NCBI GenBank assembly: GCA_026645945.1
Contig: JAPKMO010000003.1
Coordinates: 25,319 to 89,318, forward strand
Origin: Anaerolineae bacterium
GTDB taxonomy: Bacteria; Chloroflexota; Anaerolineae; Aggregatilineales; Phototrophicaceae
Reading direction: 5' to 3'
DNA: 64,000 nt
The notes beneath the pieces are model-generated. The model saw only the letters and a program-made list of their open reading frames with translations, made no database searches and was not told the DNA's origin. This document shows positions 8,115-59,770 of this stretch, piece by piece. The first letter of the stretch is position 1, and the number at the start of each line of letters is the position of its first letter. The translations under genes were made by a program, and so were the position numbers.

Positions 8115-8134
8115 CAGTGGGCTTAAGCCCACTG
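8115..8134. repeat. 20-bp palindrome CAGTGGGCTTAAGCCCACTG
   Basis: Perfect 20-bp palindrome directly downstream of the gltB stop codon. The same core recurs at 58804-58825 and, with one base pair changed, at 38912-38935. Degenerate copies lie around 57171-57274. At this position it may serve as a transcription stop or mRNA-end hairpin for gltB. Confidence 0.75.
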
Positions 8135-38911: not shown

Positions 38912-38935
38912 GACAGCGGGCTTAAGCCCGCTGTC
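38912..38935. repeat. 24-bp palindrome GACAGCGGGCTTAAGCCCGCTGTC
   Basis: Perfect 24-bp palindrome in the 296-base gap between the TIR-FGE gene and the sigma-factor gene. Its core differs by one base pair from the copies at 8115 and 58804. A second small hairpin TCGCGC-gga-GCGCGA lies at 38846-38860. The rest of the gap holds nothing I recognise. Confidence 0.75.
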
Positions 38936-39077
38936 CAGTCAGGATCAGGCACAGTCGGATGGCTTTATCCATCAGTCCGCGCTGAAGCCGGCGCGGGCGT
39001 CTGTTCAAAATTCCCCCAAAATGGAACTTTTCCCCTTTATCCGGCAACCAATCCTGTAGAGAGTCGAAGGAGGTTGG

Positions 39078-50248: not shown

Positions 50249-52105
50249 GTGATTTTGGCTGTTGAACATGTCGAAACCAAACTGGCGCTGGAATACGAGG
50301 CCATCCGGCGGCGGGAATATGAGTTAATTACGCGCCTGCTGGATGTGCTGCCGACGGTGGATAACCTGCCGGAGGAGCGGCTGGCGCAGGTGCGCGACGC
50401 GCTGTTTCATGCCGACCATCCCTTCCTGGTGGTGCTGGTCGGGCCGTTTAGCTCCGGCAAATCCAGCATCATCAATGCCTTGCTCGGCCAGCCGGATTTG
50501 CTGGCTGTTGGCCCGGTGCCGACCACCGACCGCATCAGCATCCTGCGTTGGGGCGAAAACGCTGAACGGATGACCTCCGCCGGCGAAGTGGATACGGTGT
50601 TTTATCCCTCGCCGCTGCTGCAAAAGGTCAGCCTGGTAGATACGCCGGGGCTGGAGTCCATTTTCCAGAAGCACGAGGAAACCACGCGCCGGTTTTTGCA
50701 CCGTGCCGACGTGGTGCTGCTGGTGATGCTGGCGACCCAGGCCATGACCGCGCGCAACCTGGAATACCTGCAAACGCTCAAAGAATACGGCAAGAAGGTT
50801 ATCCTCGTCATCAACCAGGCCGACCTGCTGACGGCGGAAGATGCCGAGGCCGTCCGTGAATACGTGCTTGACCAGAGCCAGGCGCAGCTTGGATACAAGC
50901 CGGATGTTTGGCTGGTATCGGCGCGGCAGGGGCTGGCGGCCTACCAAAACGGCGAACTGAACCGCGCCAACTGGAAAGCCAGCGGCCTGAGCCGGATTGA
51001 AGAATATGTGGATGACCAGTTAAACGACGTGGCGCGGCTGCGGCAGAAGCTCCAGACACCGCTGCAAATCGCCCAGAACGTGAACCAGGCTGCGCTGGAC
51101 GCTGTGCGCGCCAATCAGGCGGCGCTCGACCATTACCAGGGCATTTCCAGCAATATCGAACAGCAGTTGGCGGCGCAGAAGCGCGAACAGGAAAAAGTCA
51201 TCCGCGAAATCAGCGCAGAAGTCAGCGATCGGTTCGGCACGGCGGCCATGCGCGGCAGCGAAGCCGTTCAGGACATTTTTCGATTGGGGCAGGCGTTCCT
51301 TTCGGTGTGGCGGGGCGTGCTGGAACTGGTCGGCCTGTCCGGGCTGCTGCGGCGCGGCGGCGGGCGCTCGTACATCAAAACCGCTTTCGAGCGACGCAAG
51401 GCCTTCGAGCCAATCGGTGAACTGCCCGGTGTGGTAGACAAACTCGCGCCGCGCCTGGAAGGTAAGGACATCCAGGATATTGATGATTTAGTGAAATATG
51501 CCCGGCGCGAGATTGACGCGCTGCCGCCGGCCATTCGTGGTAAGGTGATCGGCAGCATTCAGCCGCCGCAGAAGTACGACCGTTCGGCGCTGCAAGACGT
51601 TCGCCCGGCACTGGAAGCCCTTGAAGATGAAGCGAAACGGGTCGAAACCGACCGCCTGGAGCAGACGCTCCGCAATGCGCTGATGTACCTGGCGGCTTTT
51701 GAGGCGCTTCTCATCATCCTGATCGTGTTCGTGCTGGCCGGCGGCGGCAATCTGGTCGCGCCGGAGAACCAGGGAACGCTGGTCGCTTTTATCGTGCTGG
51801 TTGGGCTGGCGCTGCTGGGGCTGCTGTTCATGCCGCTGCGTGGCCGCCTGCTGGAGTCCGCCTATACCAACCGGATGTTAAAATTACAGGCGCGGTATAT
51901 CGAAACGCTGACGAAGGCCGCCGATAAACAGATCGAATATGGGATGCGCCTGCGCCGGGATGCGATTCTGCCGCTCACCCGTTTGATCGAAGCGCAGACG
52001 CAGATACAAAGCGAACAACTATCGCAGTTACAAACCGCCCAGCAGGAGATGGTCAGCATCGAAGGGGCGCTGACGGCGCTGGGGCGCAAACGTCTACCGT
52101 TGTGA
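50249..52105 (+). CDS. bacterial dynamin-like GTPase (first of pair)
   Basis: 618 residues from GTG 50249. Large membrane-remodelling GTPase: P-loop GPFSSGKSS (about residues 71-79), switch I threonine in PVPTTDRI, DTPG (about 133-136), and NQAD as G4. Long helical stalk segments follow, plus a hydrophobic hairpin near residues 487-535 (YLAAFEALLIILIVFVLAGGG and VAFIVLVGLALLGLLFM) that can insert in the membrane. Paired bacterial dynamins (as in DynA/B) tubulate or protect membranes under stress. The stop is directly followed by the second dynamin gene. Confidence 0.88.
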   Translation: MILAVEHVETKLALEYEAIRRREYELITRLLDVLPTVDNLPEERLAQVRDALFHADHPFLVVLVGPFSSGKSSIINALLGQPDLLAVGPVPTTDRISILRWGENAERMTSAGEVDTVFYPSPLLQKVSLVDTPGLESIFQKHEETTRRFLHRADVVLLVMLATQAMTARNLEYLQTLKEYGKKVILVINQADLLTAEDAEAVREYVLDQSQAQLGYKPDVWLVSARQGLAAYQNGELNRANWKASGLSRIEEYVDDQLNDVARLRQKLQTPLQIAQNVNQAALDAVRANQAALDHYQGISSNIEQQLAAQKREQEKVIREISAEVSDRFGTAAMRGSEAVQDIFRLGQAFLSVWRGVLELVGLSGLLRRGGGRSYIKTAFERRKAFEPIGELPGVVDKLAPRLEGKDIQDIDDLVKYARREIDALPPAIRGKVIGSIQPPQKYDRSALQDVRPALEALEDEAKRVETDRLEQTLRNALMYLAAFEALLIILIVFVLAGGGNLVAPENQGTLVAFIVLVGLALLGLLFMPLRGRLLESAYTNRMLKLQARYIETLTKAADKQIEYGMRLRRDAILPLTRLIEAQTQIQSEQLSQLQTAQQEMVSIEGALTALGRKRLPL

Positions 52106-52113
52106 GGAACACC

Positions 52114-53880
52114 TTGAATACGCTTGATGGAACGCTGGCAGCACTCCGGGAATCGGAGATTCGGTTATTGATGGATGTCGGCACGACGCTGGCGGAAATG
52201 GGCGAAAGCGCCCAGGAAGACCGCCGCCGTCTGCTGGACGTGGCGCAGGACCTGCGCGATATGTTCTTCCTGGTGGTTGTCATCGGGGAGTTTAACGCCG
52301 GGAAATCCACTTTTATCAATGCCCTGGTGGGGGAGAACCTGCTGCCGGTCGGCGTCACCCCCACGACCGAAGTGATTGAACTAATCCGCTACGGCGACAC
52401 CGCCAACCGCAAGCCGCTGATGCGGGAGGACGGCATCCGGGAATGGACGCACCCCAACACCGGCGCGCCGGGCGTGGCGCTGGTGGATACACCCGGAACG
52501 GGGTCAGTTTTCCAGAAGCACGAAAAAACCGCCAAATCCTTCCTGCACCGCAGCGATCTGGTGGTATTTGTCGTTTCGGCCAAACGCGCGTTTGCCGAAA
52601 CGGAGCGCCTGTACCTGGAGCTGGCGAAAAACTACGGCAAAAAGATCATCCTGGTCATCAACCAGATTGATCTGCTGCAACCCAAAGAACAGACCGAAGT
52701 CCGCCGCTTCATCGAACGGCAGGTGGAAGAACTGCTTGATCTGCGCCCGCTGCTGTTTATGGCTTCGGCCAAAGAGGCGCTGGCTGCTGCCCAGGGCGGC
52801 CAGCCAACCGTCGGCGATCTGGGCGGAGTTGAGGCGGTGCGGGCGCACCTGCGCGGCGTGTTCAGCGAAGCACCGCCCGCCAAACAAAAACTGCTGGCGC
52901 AGCTTGACCTGGCCGAACGGCTGGTGAAAAAATACCAGGATGAGGTGCAGCGTAAAGCCGACCTGGTGAGCGCGGATACGGCCAAAGTGCGCGAAGTTGA
53001 GCGCGAGCTGGAGCAGCAGTCGTTAGGGCTGGATACGCAGTTGAAGGCCGCCCGCGCCGACGTTGACCGTGTGTTTGAAGGGATGCGCCAGCGCGGCATG
53101 GCCTTCATTGACAGCCACCTTTCGGTGAGCAAAATCGGGCGCGCGCCGAAGCGCGAAGTTTTGCAGGCCGAGTTTCAGGAAGTGGTGGTGGGCCGGGCGC
53201 TGCGGGACATCAACGAAGCGACCGGCGGCTACATCAATGCCGTCATTGATAGCAGCCGCCTGTACTGGCGCAGCGTCATTGACCGGCTGAACCAGCTCCG
53301 CGACCTGATGGCGCAGGAAGTCACCGGGCTGGACGCGGGCGTATACGCCGAACAGCGCGAAAGCCTGGAAGAAGCGATACGGATTGCGGAAACCGAACTG
53401 CGTTCGTATTCAACCGGGCGGGTGGTGGCGGAAATTCAGGATTTGTTCCAGACCAACATGAGCGGTTTCGTCAGTACGGCGGGCGTGACCGTCGTCGGCC
53501 TCATCATCATTCTGCTGGAAATCGTGACCAAAACCGCGCTGATCGCCGGCCCGGTCGGGGCGCTTGTCCCGCCGGTGACGATTGCCGTGACCGGCCTGAG
53601 CGGCTTTTTTGCCTGGCGTTATTATCGCCGCGTTTCCCGTGATGCCAAAGACAGCCTGCACGCCCGGATTGACCACCTGGAAAAGTCGTATCATGCCGCG
53701 CTGGATGACCTGACGCTGAAGGAACGCAGCCGCCTGACGCAGTACGGCAAGCAGGTACTCACGCCGATTTTCAGCCGTCTGGAGGTGCTGGCGCAGCGGT
53801 ACGCCGCGCAAAGCGCCGCCCTGCGCGCGCACCTGACGCAGATAGCTACCCTGCGCGAAGGTATCGAAAAGAGCCGATAG
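52114..53880 (+). CDS. bacterial dynamin-like GTPase (second of pair)
   Basis: 588 residues from TTG 52114, which has AGGA at proper spacing (the ORF-track GTG 52102 overlaps the first gene). The P-loop is GEFNAGKST. GVTPTTEV carries the switch I Thr, then DTPGTGSVFQKHEKT (a sequence nearly identical in its tail to the first protein) and NQID as G4. A hydrophobic segment at about 455-515 (TAGVTVVGLIIILLEIV; ALIAGPVGALVPPVTIAVTGLSGFF) is the likely membrane paddle. The two GTPases probably form hetero-oligomers on the membrane, as in other tandem bacterial dynamins. Confidence 0.88.
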   Translation: MNTLDGTLAALRESEIRLLMDVGTTLAEMGESAQEDRRRLLDVAQDLRDMFFLVVVIGEFNAGKSTFINALVGENLLPVGVTPTTEVIELIRYGDTANRKPLMREDGIREWTHPNTGAPGVALVDTPGTGSVFQKHEKTAKSFLHRSDLVVFVVSAKRAFAETERLYLELAKNYGKKIILVINQIDLLQPKEQTEVRRFIERQVEELLDLRPLLFMASAKEALAAAQGGQPTVGDLGGVEAVRAHLRGVFSEAPPAKQKLLAQLDLAERLVKKYQDEVQRKADLVSADTAKVREVERELEQQSLGLDTQLKAARADVDRVFEGMRQRGMAFIDSHLSVSKIGRAPKREVLQAEFQEVVVGRALRDINEATGGYINAVIDSSRLYWRSVIDRLNQLRDLMAQEVTGLDAGVYAEQRESLEEAIRIAETELRSYSTGRVVAEIQDLFQTNMSGFVSTAGVTVVGLIIILLEIVTKTALIAGPVGALVPPVTIAVTGLSGFFAWRYYRRVSRDAKDSLHARIDHLEKSYHAALDDLTLKERSRLTQYGKQVLTPIFSRLEVLAQRYAAQSAALRAHLTQIATLREGIEKSR

Positions 53881-57409: not shown

Positions 57410-58720
57410 ATGCAGTATGAACGTCTGGTGCAGTGGGCGCGCGATACCTGGGAAAAACGCTGGCCGGGGCGCGCGTACACAACGATCTGGGCGTCAACGG
57501 AATGCAGCAACATGATCGCTCAGAATCAGATTAAATCCGGGCGCAGGCTGCGCGGAAAAGCCCGCTACGATGGTGTGGAACAACTGGAATGTCCGGTCAT
57601 CGTCCCCATCAGCGACTATGGTTCGCGGGGCAAAAAGATGGTGCTGACGGCCACCGCCGGGGCATACATATTCAAGTTTTCGGTGGAAGGTGAAGACCCC
57701 TTCGAGGTCGTTTACGCCAGTTCATATTTTGACGATGACGTGCAGGATTTAACGGCAGTGGCGCTGGTTCCTTCCGGCAAGCTGGAAACCTGGGCGGCCT
57801 TCGAGTTCGCCTGCGCGCGGGCGGTGCGCCCCCGTATCCGCCGCCGCCGGGACGTGTATATCATCGGCGGCACGGATGCCTTTTTTGACCCGACGGTGGA
57901 TTGGGAAGATGTCATCCTGCCGGACGATTTAAAAGATGACCTGCTGGACGACATGGAGGCCTTCTTTACGAAAGGCGTGTACATCTACCGGCAGCTTAAA
58001 CTGGCCCCGTTCCGCAAGCTGCTGCTGGCGGGCGTGCCGGGAACGGGCAAAACCATGCTGTGCGCGGCGATGGCGAAGCTGGCGATCAACCAGGGGCGCA
58101 TCGTCGTTTATGTGTCCGGCTCCGACCGGGACGGCGCATCGTTCGAGAAAATCCAGCGCGCGCTCCAGGCGGTGACGGCGGCGCGCTACCCGGTTTTGCT
58201 GATCGTGGAGGAACTGGACGCTTATCTCCAGGGCGATGATAAAGCGCGGATTTTGAATGTCCTGGATGGGGTGGAGTCGCCCAACAACCCGGAAGGCGCG
58301 CTGATGCTGGCGACGACCAATTATCCCGAAGTGATTGACGAACGCATCGCTAAGCGGCCTGGCCGGCTCGACCGTATTTTCGTCATTCCGACCATTCAGG
58401 ACGACCATCATGCCGAGCAAATGCTGCGCTATTACATGGCGGACCAGTGGAAAGATGAACACCTGATGGTCATCCCGGAACTCATTAACCAGCCCGGCGC
58501 GTTTGTGCGCGAGGCGGCGCTGCACGCCCGGATGCTGGCGGCCCATGAACACCGCACTGAAGTGACGCTGGAGTACCTCCAGCAGTCTATTGACAGCCTG
58601 CTGCGGCAGGTTCGCTCCGGGAACGACTTTTTTAAGGAACGCCGCCCAATGGGGCTGGTGAGCAGCAATTCCGGCAAGGTGCCGCTGAAAAAACTGCCGC
58701 GATACAATCCGTTCGGATAA
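57410..58720 (+). CDS. AAA+ ATPase with uncharacterised N-terminal domain
   Basis: 436 residues. The N-terminal part of about 180 residues has no recognisable motif; it may be a small beta/alpha domain. A classical AAA+ module lies at about 200-400: Walker A GVPGTGKTM, Walker B LLIVEELDAYL with Glu in the usual Asp position, sensor 1 ATTNYPEVIDERI and an arginine-containing RPGRLDRIFVIP. It resembles BCS1/FtsH-type single AAA modules, so it probably remodels or unfolds a protein. The gene stands alone between repeat elements. Confidence 0.82.
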   Translation: MQYERLVQWARDTWEKRWPGRAYTTIWASTECSNMIAQNQIKSGRRLRGKARYDGVEQLECPVIVPISDYGSRGKKMVLTATAGAYIFKFSVEGEDPFEVVYASSYFDDDVQDLTAVALVPSGKLETWAAFEFACARAVRPRIRRRRDVYIIGGTDAFFDPTVDWEDVILPDDLKDDLLDDMEAFFTKGVYIYRQLKLAPFRKLLLAGVPGTGKTMLCAAMAKLAINQGRIVVYVSGSDRDGASFEKIQRALQAVTAARYPVLLIVEELDAYLQGDDKARILNVLDGVESPNNPEGALMLATTNYPEVIDERIAKRPGRLDRIFVIPTIQDDHHAEQMLRYYMADQWKDEHLMVIPELINQPGAFVREAALHARMLAAHEHRTEVTLEYLQQSIDSLLRQVRSGNDFFKERRPMGLVSSNSGKVPLKKLPRYNPFG

Positions 58721-59107
58721 CCGCCCACTAGTATATAAACCAGCTTAATCTGCATCCTGACAGCGCGGCAGTGGGCTTAAGAGTTTATCCGTAAACCCAC
58801 CAGACAGTGGGCTTAAGCCCACTGTTCTGCTATCAGATCAATCGGTTTGGTTTATGGATAGGTTCTAAGCCCACTGTCGGAGGCAGGCATTCTCATCTTG
58901 TGGATGTACTAGGGCGGTTTTTTTATCCGCCGAATCCCCTGCGTTTTCCCGACTATACGGTATGAAATTTTTAACATAACCCGGCAAAAGTTTATCTTAT
59001 CTAACCCTTAGCGCGCAGGTTAGTAATATCTAACCACACACTTTCATAATTTTTATATCATAGAGATAGAGGTATTTGTCCGCAGCGATTAATCCGTGAG
59101 GATGTTT
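58721..59107. other. intergenic region with nested repeat and candidate operator
   Basis: 387 bases without a gene. The left half holds a nested palindromic element (see 58769-58876). The right half has an AT-richer stretch before the LysM gene with a perfect inverted repeat GGTTAG-TAATAT-CTAACC (59018-59035) and a further copy of ATCTAACC at about 59000-59007. This looks like a regulator-binding region, presumably for the LysM gene. Confidence 0.5.
58769..58876. repeat. nested palindromic element with 4-bp target duplication
   Basis: An outer palindrome CAGTGGGCTTAAG...TAAGCCCACTG is split by an 84-bp insert (58782-58865). TAAG is present on both sides of the insert as a target-site duplication. 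The insert has near-perfect inverted ends TTATCCGTAAACC/GGTTTATGGATA (58785-58797, 58849-58860) and an intact ACAGTGGGCTTAAGCCCACTGT (58804-58825) in its centre. That is, a palindromic element inserted into another copy of the same family. Confidence 0.65.
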
Positions 59108-59770
59108 ATGCGTAACCTTATCCGTTTACTGACCTTGACGCTCGTTCTGGCGAGCGTGCTGGCGTGGGGAATGACGCCGGTTCGCGCCGAGTGCGGCGTG
59201 TACCATACCGTTCAGGCCGGGCAAAACCTGTTTCGGATTTCCCTGCGTTACGGGGTGAGCATGGAGGCTATCGCCGCCGCCAACGGCATCGCCGATGTTC
59301 GCCGTATTTATGCCGGTCAGACGCTTTACATTCCGTGCAGCGGGGGCGCGAGTTCCGCCGCTGCGACGACGGCCACCACCGTCACCACGACCGTTACCAC
59401 CACCGTCACGACGGTAGTTGTGCCGCCGGCGGCAGCCGACCCCGCGGCGGCGGTGAACTGCGCGGGCTTCCGCGCCACGTCGCCGCTGGATGGTTTCCCG
59501 AACGGCGAGACGACTTTTTACTGGGACCCACCTCGGTCGGGCAACATCACCCATTATCAGGTCTACGTGCTGAATGAAAACGGCCAGCTTGTGACCGGGC
59601 TGGACGTACCCGGCGGCATCACCAAGACGCGCGGGAACATGGAACTGGCCGCTATCGGGCGCGGCATCAACTTCTCCTGGTATGTAGTGGCGCTGGATGA
59701 CAGCGGCGAAGTCTGCCGGTCGCAGACGGTGCGCTTGCGCCGCGAGTGGTCGGACTCGATGGGGTCGTAG
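59108..59770 (+). CDS. secreted LysM-domain protein with C-terminal Ig/Fn3-like domain
   Basis: 220 residues from ATG 59108 (GAGGA upstream). A signal peptide (about 1-26, ending VRA-E) is followed by one LysM domain (about 28-78; YHTVQAGQNLFRISLRYGVSMEAIAAANGI, RRIYAGQTLYIPC) that binds peptidoglycan or chitin-like glycans. A Thr/Val repeat linker (TTTVTTTVTT) leads to a C-terminal domain (about 120-220) with a fibronectin-type pattern (TTFYWDPPRSGNITHYQVYVLNENGQLVTG). Two Cys in the C-terminal domain may form a disulfide. It is a cell-surface protein, possibly anchored by LysM. CTAACC-type repeats in its upstream region suggest specific control. Confidence 0.85.
   Translation: MRNLIRLLTLTLVLASVLAWGMTPVRAECGVYHTVQAGQNLFRISLRYGVSMEAIAAANGIADVRRIYAGQTLYIPCSGGASSAAATTATTVTTTVTTTVTTVVVPPAAADPAAAVNCAGFRATSPLDGFPNGETTFYWDPPRSGNITHYQVYVLNENGQLVTGLDVPGGITKTRGNMELAAIGRGINFSWYVVALDDSGEVCRSQTVRLRREWSDSMGS

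Follow-up and report, generated by a model that had tools for sequence, protein, structure and literature searches.

The window, the whole 64,000-nucleotide stretch of DNA that was analysed, belongs to a draft MAG (G000; 4.7 Mb in 254 contigs, 92.6 % complete). Behind an AAA-ATPase gene (57410-58720), for which 15 further genomes of this genus have an orthologue of more than 80 % identity, the two stems of an intrinsic terminator lie about 186 bp apart, and the space between them is occupied by two MITEs, one inside the other. These features, together with two related ones elsewhere in the window, are as follows (strand given where assigned):

58719-58726, + strand: 5' stem of the AAA-ATPase gene's intrinsic terminator, overlapping the stop codon (terminator intact in relative G005)
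58728-58731: left CTAG duplication of family B (one copy, CCAG, in relatives G005 and G006 versus two, CTAG, in the window)
58732-58908: family B MITE, 89 bp once the nested family A is subtracted, with ends TATATAAACCAGCTTAATCTGCAT / AGGCATTCTCATCTTGTGGATGTA that recur elsewhere; absent from G005 and G006
58769-58780: left half of the outer palindromic core, CAGTGGGCTTAA (window sequence)
58778-58780: left copy of the TAA target duplication (trinucleotides compared over copies)
58781-58865, + strand: family A MITE copy, 85 bp (boundaries constant and flanks varied over about 60 copies)
58781-58797, + strand: left terminal inverted repeat of family A, GAGTTTATCCGTAAACC (end-motif matches)
58803-58826: inner palindromic core, GACAGTGGGCTTAAGCCCACTGTT (genome-wide core counts)
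58849-58865, - strand: right terminal inverted repeat, reverse complement GAACCTATCCATAAACC (end-motif matches)
58866-58868: right copy of the TAA target duplication (same comparison as the left copy)
58866-58876: right half of the outer palindromic core, TAAGCCCACTG (window sequence)
58909-58912: right CTAG duplication of family B (comparison with G005 and G006)
58912-58924, + strand: 3' stem of this terminator with its T-run (the base of the hairpin still pairs in the predicted fold)
8115-8134: uninterrupted outer core with similar flanks, a paralogous empty site (alignment with the joined flanks)
38914-38970: a variant of the core, CAGCGGGCTTAAGCCCGCTG, together with one end of the third MITE family, C (core and end comparison)

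A nested insertion in a terminator loop

From left to right, the centre of the locus reads CAGTGGGCT (58769-58777), TAA (58778-58780), GAGTTTATCC...GGATAGGTTC (58781-58865), a second TAA (58866-58868) and GCCCACTG (58869-58876). Both flanks joined by a single TAA give CAGTGGGCTTAAGCCCACTG, a restored palindrome, and the joined flanks align to both sides of the uninterrupted core at 8115-8134. The insert itself, GAGTTTATCCGTAAACC...GGTTTATGGATAGGTTC with TAA on each side, contains its own intact ACAGTGGGCTTAAGCCCACTGT (58804-58825). An earlier note on this DNA had described an 84-bp insert with inverted ends that splits a palindrome and carries an intact copy of it, and both points are borne out; the length is 84 bp if the borders are read as TAAG, and 85 bp with the 3-bp duplication of the family. 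The note had further spoken of insertion into another copy of the same element. The insertion stands, but insert and host belong to two MITE families with unrelated ends, which have the palindromic core in common.

The sequences flanking the outer core recur round other cores (GTACATCAACAAGATGAGAATGCCT on one side, ATGCAGATTAAGCTGGTTCATGTAC on the other), and family B ends surround the same core at other loci (L173, L176, L181, L184). Empty sites in relatives, which the earlier note had proposed to look for, exist for the outer element in two genomes. In G005 (Chloroflexi bacterium CFX2), whose flanks are 96–97 % identical, window positions 58601-58731 and 58908-59180 correspond to adjacent bases with a 5-base overlap, and G006 has the same empty site between flanks of 83 % identity. 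The empty site, AACCGCCC-ACCAG-GGCGGTTTTTT, is an intrinsic terminator, which in G005 reads AACCGCCCACCAGGGCGGTT TTTT. Because both relatives run straight through and CTAG stands on both sides of 58732-58908 in the window, the comparison places family B within the terminator loop and family A subsequently within family B. The simplest timing for the entry of family B is after the lineage had separated from that of G005. This orthologous comparison covers the A-in-B composite. Read from these alignments, the nesting has three levels: family A in family B, and family B in the terminator loop.

The RNA of this region (58706-58930, 225 nt) has a predicted fold consisting of one nested hairpin (-102 kcal/mol, z = -8.6) in which the base of the terminator is still paired. 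Since each element is an inverted repeat and lies close to the axis of the inverted repeat that received it, the transcript is predicted to remain one long hairpin, and as this hairpin ends in the T-run, the fold suggests that termination may be retained despite the insertions.

Nested and hybrid structures can also be artefacts of short-read assembly, a concern for a draft MAG in which many contigs end within family A copies and the repeats are short and near-identical. However, the window locus lies in mid-contig and has a private 5-bp internal duplication, the duplications are concordant at both nesting levels, and the flanks follow the order found in G005. We consider an assembly origin very improbable.

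Family A, its targets and its putative parent

MITEs are short (<300 bp), multi-copy elements that lack coding capacity and have terminal inverted repeats and a target duplication. Family A, with 80–85 bp, 17-bp imperfect inverted ends and no coding capacity, answers this description. A BLAST search of G000 gave 74 matches, about 40 of them high-scoring and near full length, and the end motif GNNNNTATCCRTAAAC has 173 exact matches in the same genome (79 + 94) compared with 0 for the reversed control. At two ends per element, these matches give an estimate of roughly 90 or more family A elements in G000. The insert is thus anything but confined to the window, which would have spoken against mobility according to the earlier note. 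The assembled consensus measures 80 bp, the usual length, and most 80-bp copies differ from it at 0–7 positions; the window copy reaches 85 bp through the internal duplication (GGTTTGGTTTATGG). Five outliers in the list of distances are, judging from how distant they are, probably misoriented, and they inflate the mean pairwise difference. Right ends occur in two variants, GGATAGGTTC and GGATAGATAC.

In a count across genomes, the end motif has 163 matches in G000, 109 in the sister genome G008 and 16 in G001. The motif is absent from G005 and G006 and abundant in G000, which indicates a lineage-specific expansion of family A. In plasmid records family A was not found, and an exact 29-bp pattern had no match in a species-genome collection that may leave out G000. 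In Rfam, the only matches were two to microRNAs, both below threshold, and we attribute them to chance.

The trinucleotides left and right of the element are identical in 50 of 67 readable copies (26 TTA, 24 TAA); 20,000 shuffles of the right sides gave a mean of 24.8 identical pairs and a maximum of 40. The middle base, T versus A, is discordant in only two of the 67. As the base after the right trinucleotide is variable (G in 36 of 66, A in 19) and the first base of the element is almost always G, we read the target duplication of family A as TWA (TAA or TTA) and the TAAG of the window as TAA plus G, with the G coming from the element on one side and from the target on the other. The TAAG duplication proposed in the earlier note accordingly gives way to a 3-bp one, the extra G reflecting the invariant first base of the element and a target bias. 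Its suggested TTAAG-centred target is ruled out, TAA and TTA being about equally frequent; base preferences round TWA are mild (C before, G after). Non-identical trinucleotides, seen in 9 of the first 38 copies, are as expected for ageing copies.

In a symmetric target, a 4-bp repeat round the centre could arise trivially, and the TAAG repeat might then reflect palindrome symmetry or a local duplication without transposition. We give this explanation practically no weight: at dozens of loci that are not palindromic, the element is accompanied by a duplication of this kind too, so that palindrome symmetry does not produce the repeat, and these family-wide data already refute the explanation. 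The claim that the family is or was mobile holds, given target duplications throughout the family, the paralogous empty core at 8115-8134 and two relatives whose orthologous site lacks the outer element.

A general preference of family A for palindromic targets was considered and rejected. The mean symmetry of empty sites (3.10 of 8 pairs) does not exceed that of shuffled flanks (3.06, p = 0.42), and the palindromic target in the window is thus one of a small minority of family A insertions and no rule. The first insertion sample had been ordered by its resemblance to a query containing the outer core, and an enrichment of insertions in the shared core is therefore not claimed.

Full-length IS5-type elements of about 0.94 kb with ends GTATCTATCCGTAAAC on both sides are present in G003 (Anaerolineae bacterium MGR_bin408), and in G013 (Aggregatilineales D137_maxbin.019) an intact 3' half of the transposase runs into a GTATCTATCCGTAAAC-type end. 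G008 has a relative (63–73 % identity) whose open frame is 278 aa long and whose ends are GTACCTATCCGTAAA. In G005, an internally deleted derivative of 245 bp has the same ends. Among family A copies, the sub-group that terminates in GGATAGATAC has the right end GTATCTATCCGTAAACC, and this matches the IS end GTATCTATCCGTAAAC exactly. This match to an autonomous IS5-family element points to family A as a MITE derived from the IS5 family, and from the identity of the ends we infer that an IS5-family transposase moved it. A 3-bp duplication, as in the IS1031 group, is present for family A; for the IS elements themselves, the flanks are discordant or too short, and the full-length G003 copy combines discordant flanking trinucleotides with in-frame damage.

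An autonomous partner in the genome of a MITE is usual, not strictly required, and may be lost. No matching autonomous transposase was found in the 254 contigs of G000 (92.6 % complete), and since such an element occurs in sister species, mobilisation of family A would have been in trans or in the past. The only DUF4096 element of G000 (L049, contig C228, about 68-905) adjoins the edge of a family A copy. It is a two-frame IS5-type element, whose ORFs match NCBIfam IS5 and Pfam DUF4096/DDE_Tnp_1, i.e., the same general transposase type; with ends GAGAGTAGTTGTAA and flanks TAT, unlike family A, it was rejected as the parent.

The palindromic core across families and species

The core GTGGGCTTAAGCCCAC has 166 exact copies in G000, one in G008 and 0–10 in 97 other genomes of the family, while the G008 core has 103 copies in G008 and none in G000. 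The same ends enclose an interior that depends on the species: GACAGTGGGCTTAAGCCCACTGTT in G000 (80 bp), GTAGGGGCACGGCATGCCGTGCCCCTAC in G008 (80 bp), CTTCCCCTGCGTGCGGGGGAAGG in G001 (110 bp) and CCCCTCTCCAATGGATTGGAGAGGGG in G012 (112 bp). In all four, the elements between the shared ends are MITEs with TWA duplications. Conversely, the G000 core is common to at least three MITE families, A, B and C. Family C has ends YGGATAAACGGAAAAGAATGAGCCTGAT / GATCAGGCACAGTCTAATTGGTTTATCCA and borders, read from the flanks, with a matching TNA in 5 of 6 testable copies (TTA, TTA, TAA, TAA, TGA).

Families B and C often hold arrays of core half-units (L048, L174, L179, L182 and L186 of G000, e.g., GACAGTGGGCTTAAGCT repeated), which suggests expansion of the core by slippage. 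Other repeats were seen in passing. A short dispersed repeat, approximately AACGCAAAGGCGC, flanks several MITEs in two species (L034, L036 and L185 in G000, L208 in G008). In the window, a 51-bp direct repeat (50633-50683 and 52480-52530, 78 % identical, 1.8 kb apart) possibly belongs to tandem paralogous genes.

Besides the B core in the window, family A is found within family C cores on contigs C48 and C20 (L009/L002, L015/L008) and within another A core at the end of contig C201 (L020). Moreover, three copies are chimeric, with the switch at the core or just beyond it. L124 and L148 have both C ends and, inside them, the left half of A, the core and the right half of C; L152 joins the left half of A, the core and the right half of B. 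L148 and L152 lie in mid-contig, L124 at a contig end; in a short-read MAG, these copies may instead be assembly chimeras. The simplest reading of these sequences would be an insertion followed by recombination between two copies of the core, and the three chimeras suggest exchange of half-elements at this point. We tentatively propose, as a possibility somewhat short of even, that the core is the exchange joint of modular MITEs, whose ends and cores are swapped by insertion and subsequent core-core recombination. A given set of ends would then come to enclose a core particular to each species, and a given core would spread to several families of ends. A limited search of open papers found no description of palindromic cores exchanged between end families or sister species.

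Another possibility is that the core is the true mobile unit, REP-like and moved by a Y1/RAYT transposase, and that the flanking ends are merely frequent landing sites. About 19 of 50 listed G000 core copies lack family A ends, and G008 has clean 28-bp GTAGGGGCACGGCATGCCGTGCCCCTAC copies at unrelated sites, at least seven inspected core copies of this genome being free of a recognisable MITE end. A Y1_Tnp domain in G000 lies 40 bp from a core copy and has core copies in its own reading frame, and GTAG-tagged REPs are reported in Chloroflexi (PMC3733652). However, the unit with defined boundaries and a matching duplication is the 80–85 bp element, not the core, and most of the “free” G000 cores inspected sit in families B and C or in half-unit arrays. 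As to the REP tag, the G000 core GACAGTGGGCTTAAGCCCACTGTC has neither GTAG nor CGTC, and the G008 core begins with GTAG. Overall, movement of the core as such seems unlikely to us.

This Y1_Tnp domain, which has core copies both near it and within it, sits at the end of a contig in a long methyltransferase-like ORF (L110, C19:12000-13787, about 1390-1788). It is RAYT-like and in frame with the ORF, with core copies in its coding sequence. A second Y1_Tnp match (L111, C110:19500-22500) belongs to a frame of at least 579 aa with a long acidic, proline-rich N-terminal part; it adjoins a gene resembling DNA polymerase I and may be a domesticated transposase domain.

Proposed history and relation to known systems

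We consider with considerable confidence that family A is a non-autonomous MITE, presumably mobilised in trans by an IS5-type transposase, and nested in family B at a terminator. In the proposed sequence of events, an IS5-family DDE transposase supplied in trans would cut TWA sites and join the 80–85 bp element to them, thereby duplicating three bases, and family A would have multiplied in the G000 lineage to its present roughly 90 or more copies. Family B would have inserted earlier, with a CTAG duplication, into the terminator loop behind the AAA-ATPase gene, and one family A copy would then have landed in the palindromic core of the resident family B. With the RNA still predicted as one long hairpin ending in the terminator T-run, termination may survive, which would make the insertion nearly neutral. 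More generally, a terminator may keep working when an inverted repeat inserts at the axis of its hairpin, and this would explain the persistence of such insertions.

To our knowledge, the origin of the non-transposon interiors of new MITE families is largely unexplained. The genus shows possible steps, from cores that are free or carried by families B and C, through family A in the B core and in C cores, to A/B or A/C chimeras, and four sister species show the same ends with four different cores.

Several components of this picture are already known, namely MITEs, IS5-type parents with 3-bp duplications, REPs that serve as IS targets and a REP-cored MITE into which another element has inserted. 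Family A resembles the IS5 family (IS1031 and IS427 groups) and its derived MITEs in its 3-bp duplication, its short imperfect ends starting with G and a parent of about 0.9 kb with an IS5-type transposase, and a three-nucleotide target is reported as a feature of the IS1031 group (PMC2516522). It differs in its ends, GNNNNTATCCRTAAACC, which are seen here only in this clade. Repetitive palindromes also harbour mobile DNA such as ISPsy8, ISPa11, ISPpu9/10 and ISRm19/22 (PMC1525189). Unlike family A, which lies mostly in non-palindromic TWA sites, these elements are selective for REPs. The palindrome-within-palindrome organisation recalls Anabaena variabilis and Thermomicrobium roseum, in which REP dimers lie inside long palindromes (PMC3733652); that passage of the source mentions neither transposon ends nor duplications, while the surrounding ends here belong to a transposon. 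The family B locus can also be compared with QMITE2 of Coxiella burnetii, a MITE whose repetitive extragenic palindrome core is a target of IS1111 (PMC5896051). In contrast, the insert here is itself another MITE, the core is common to several MITE families, and sister species combine the same ends with different cores.
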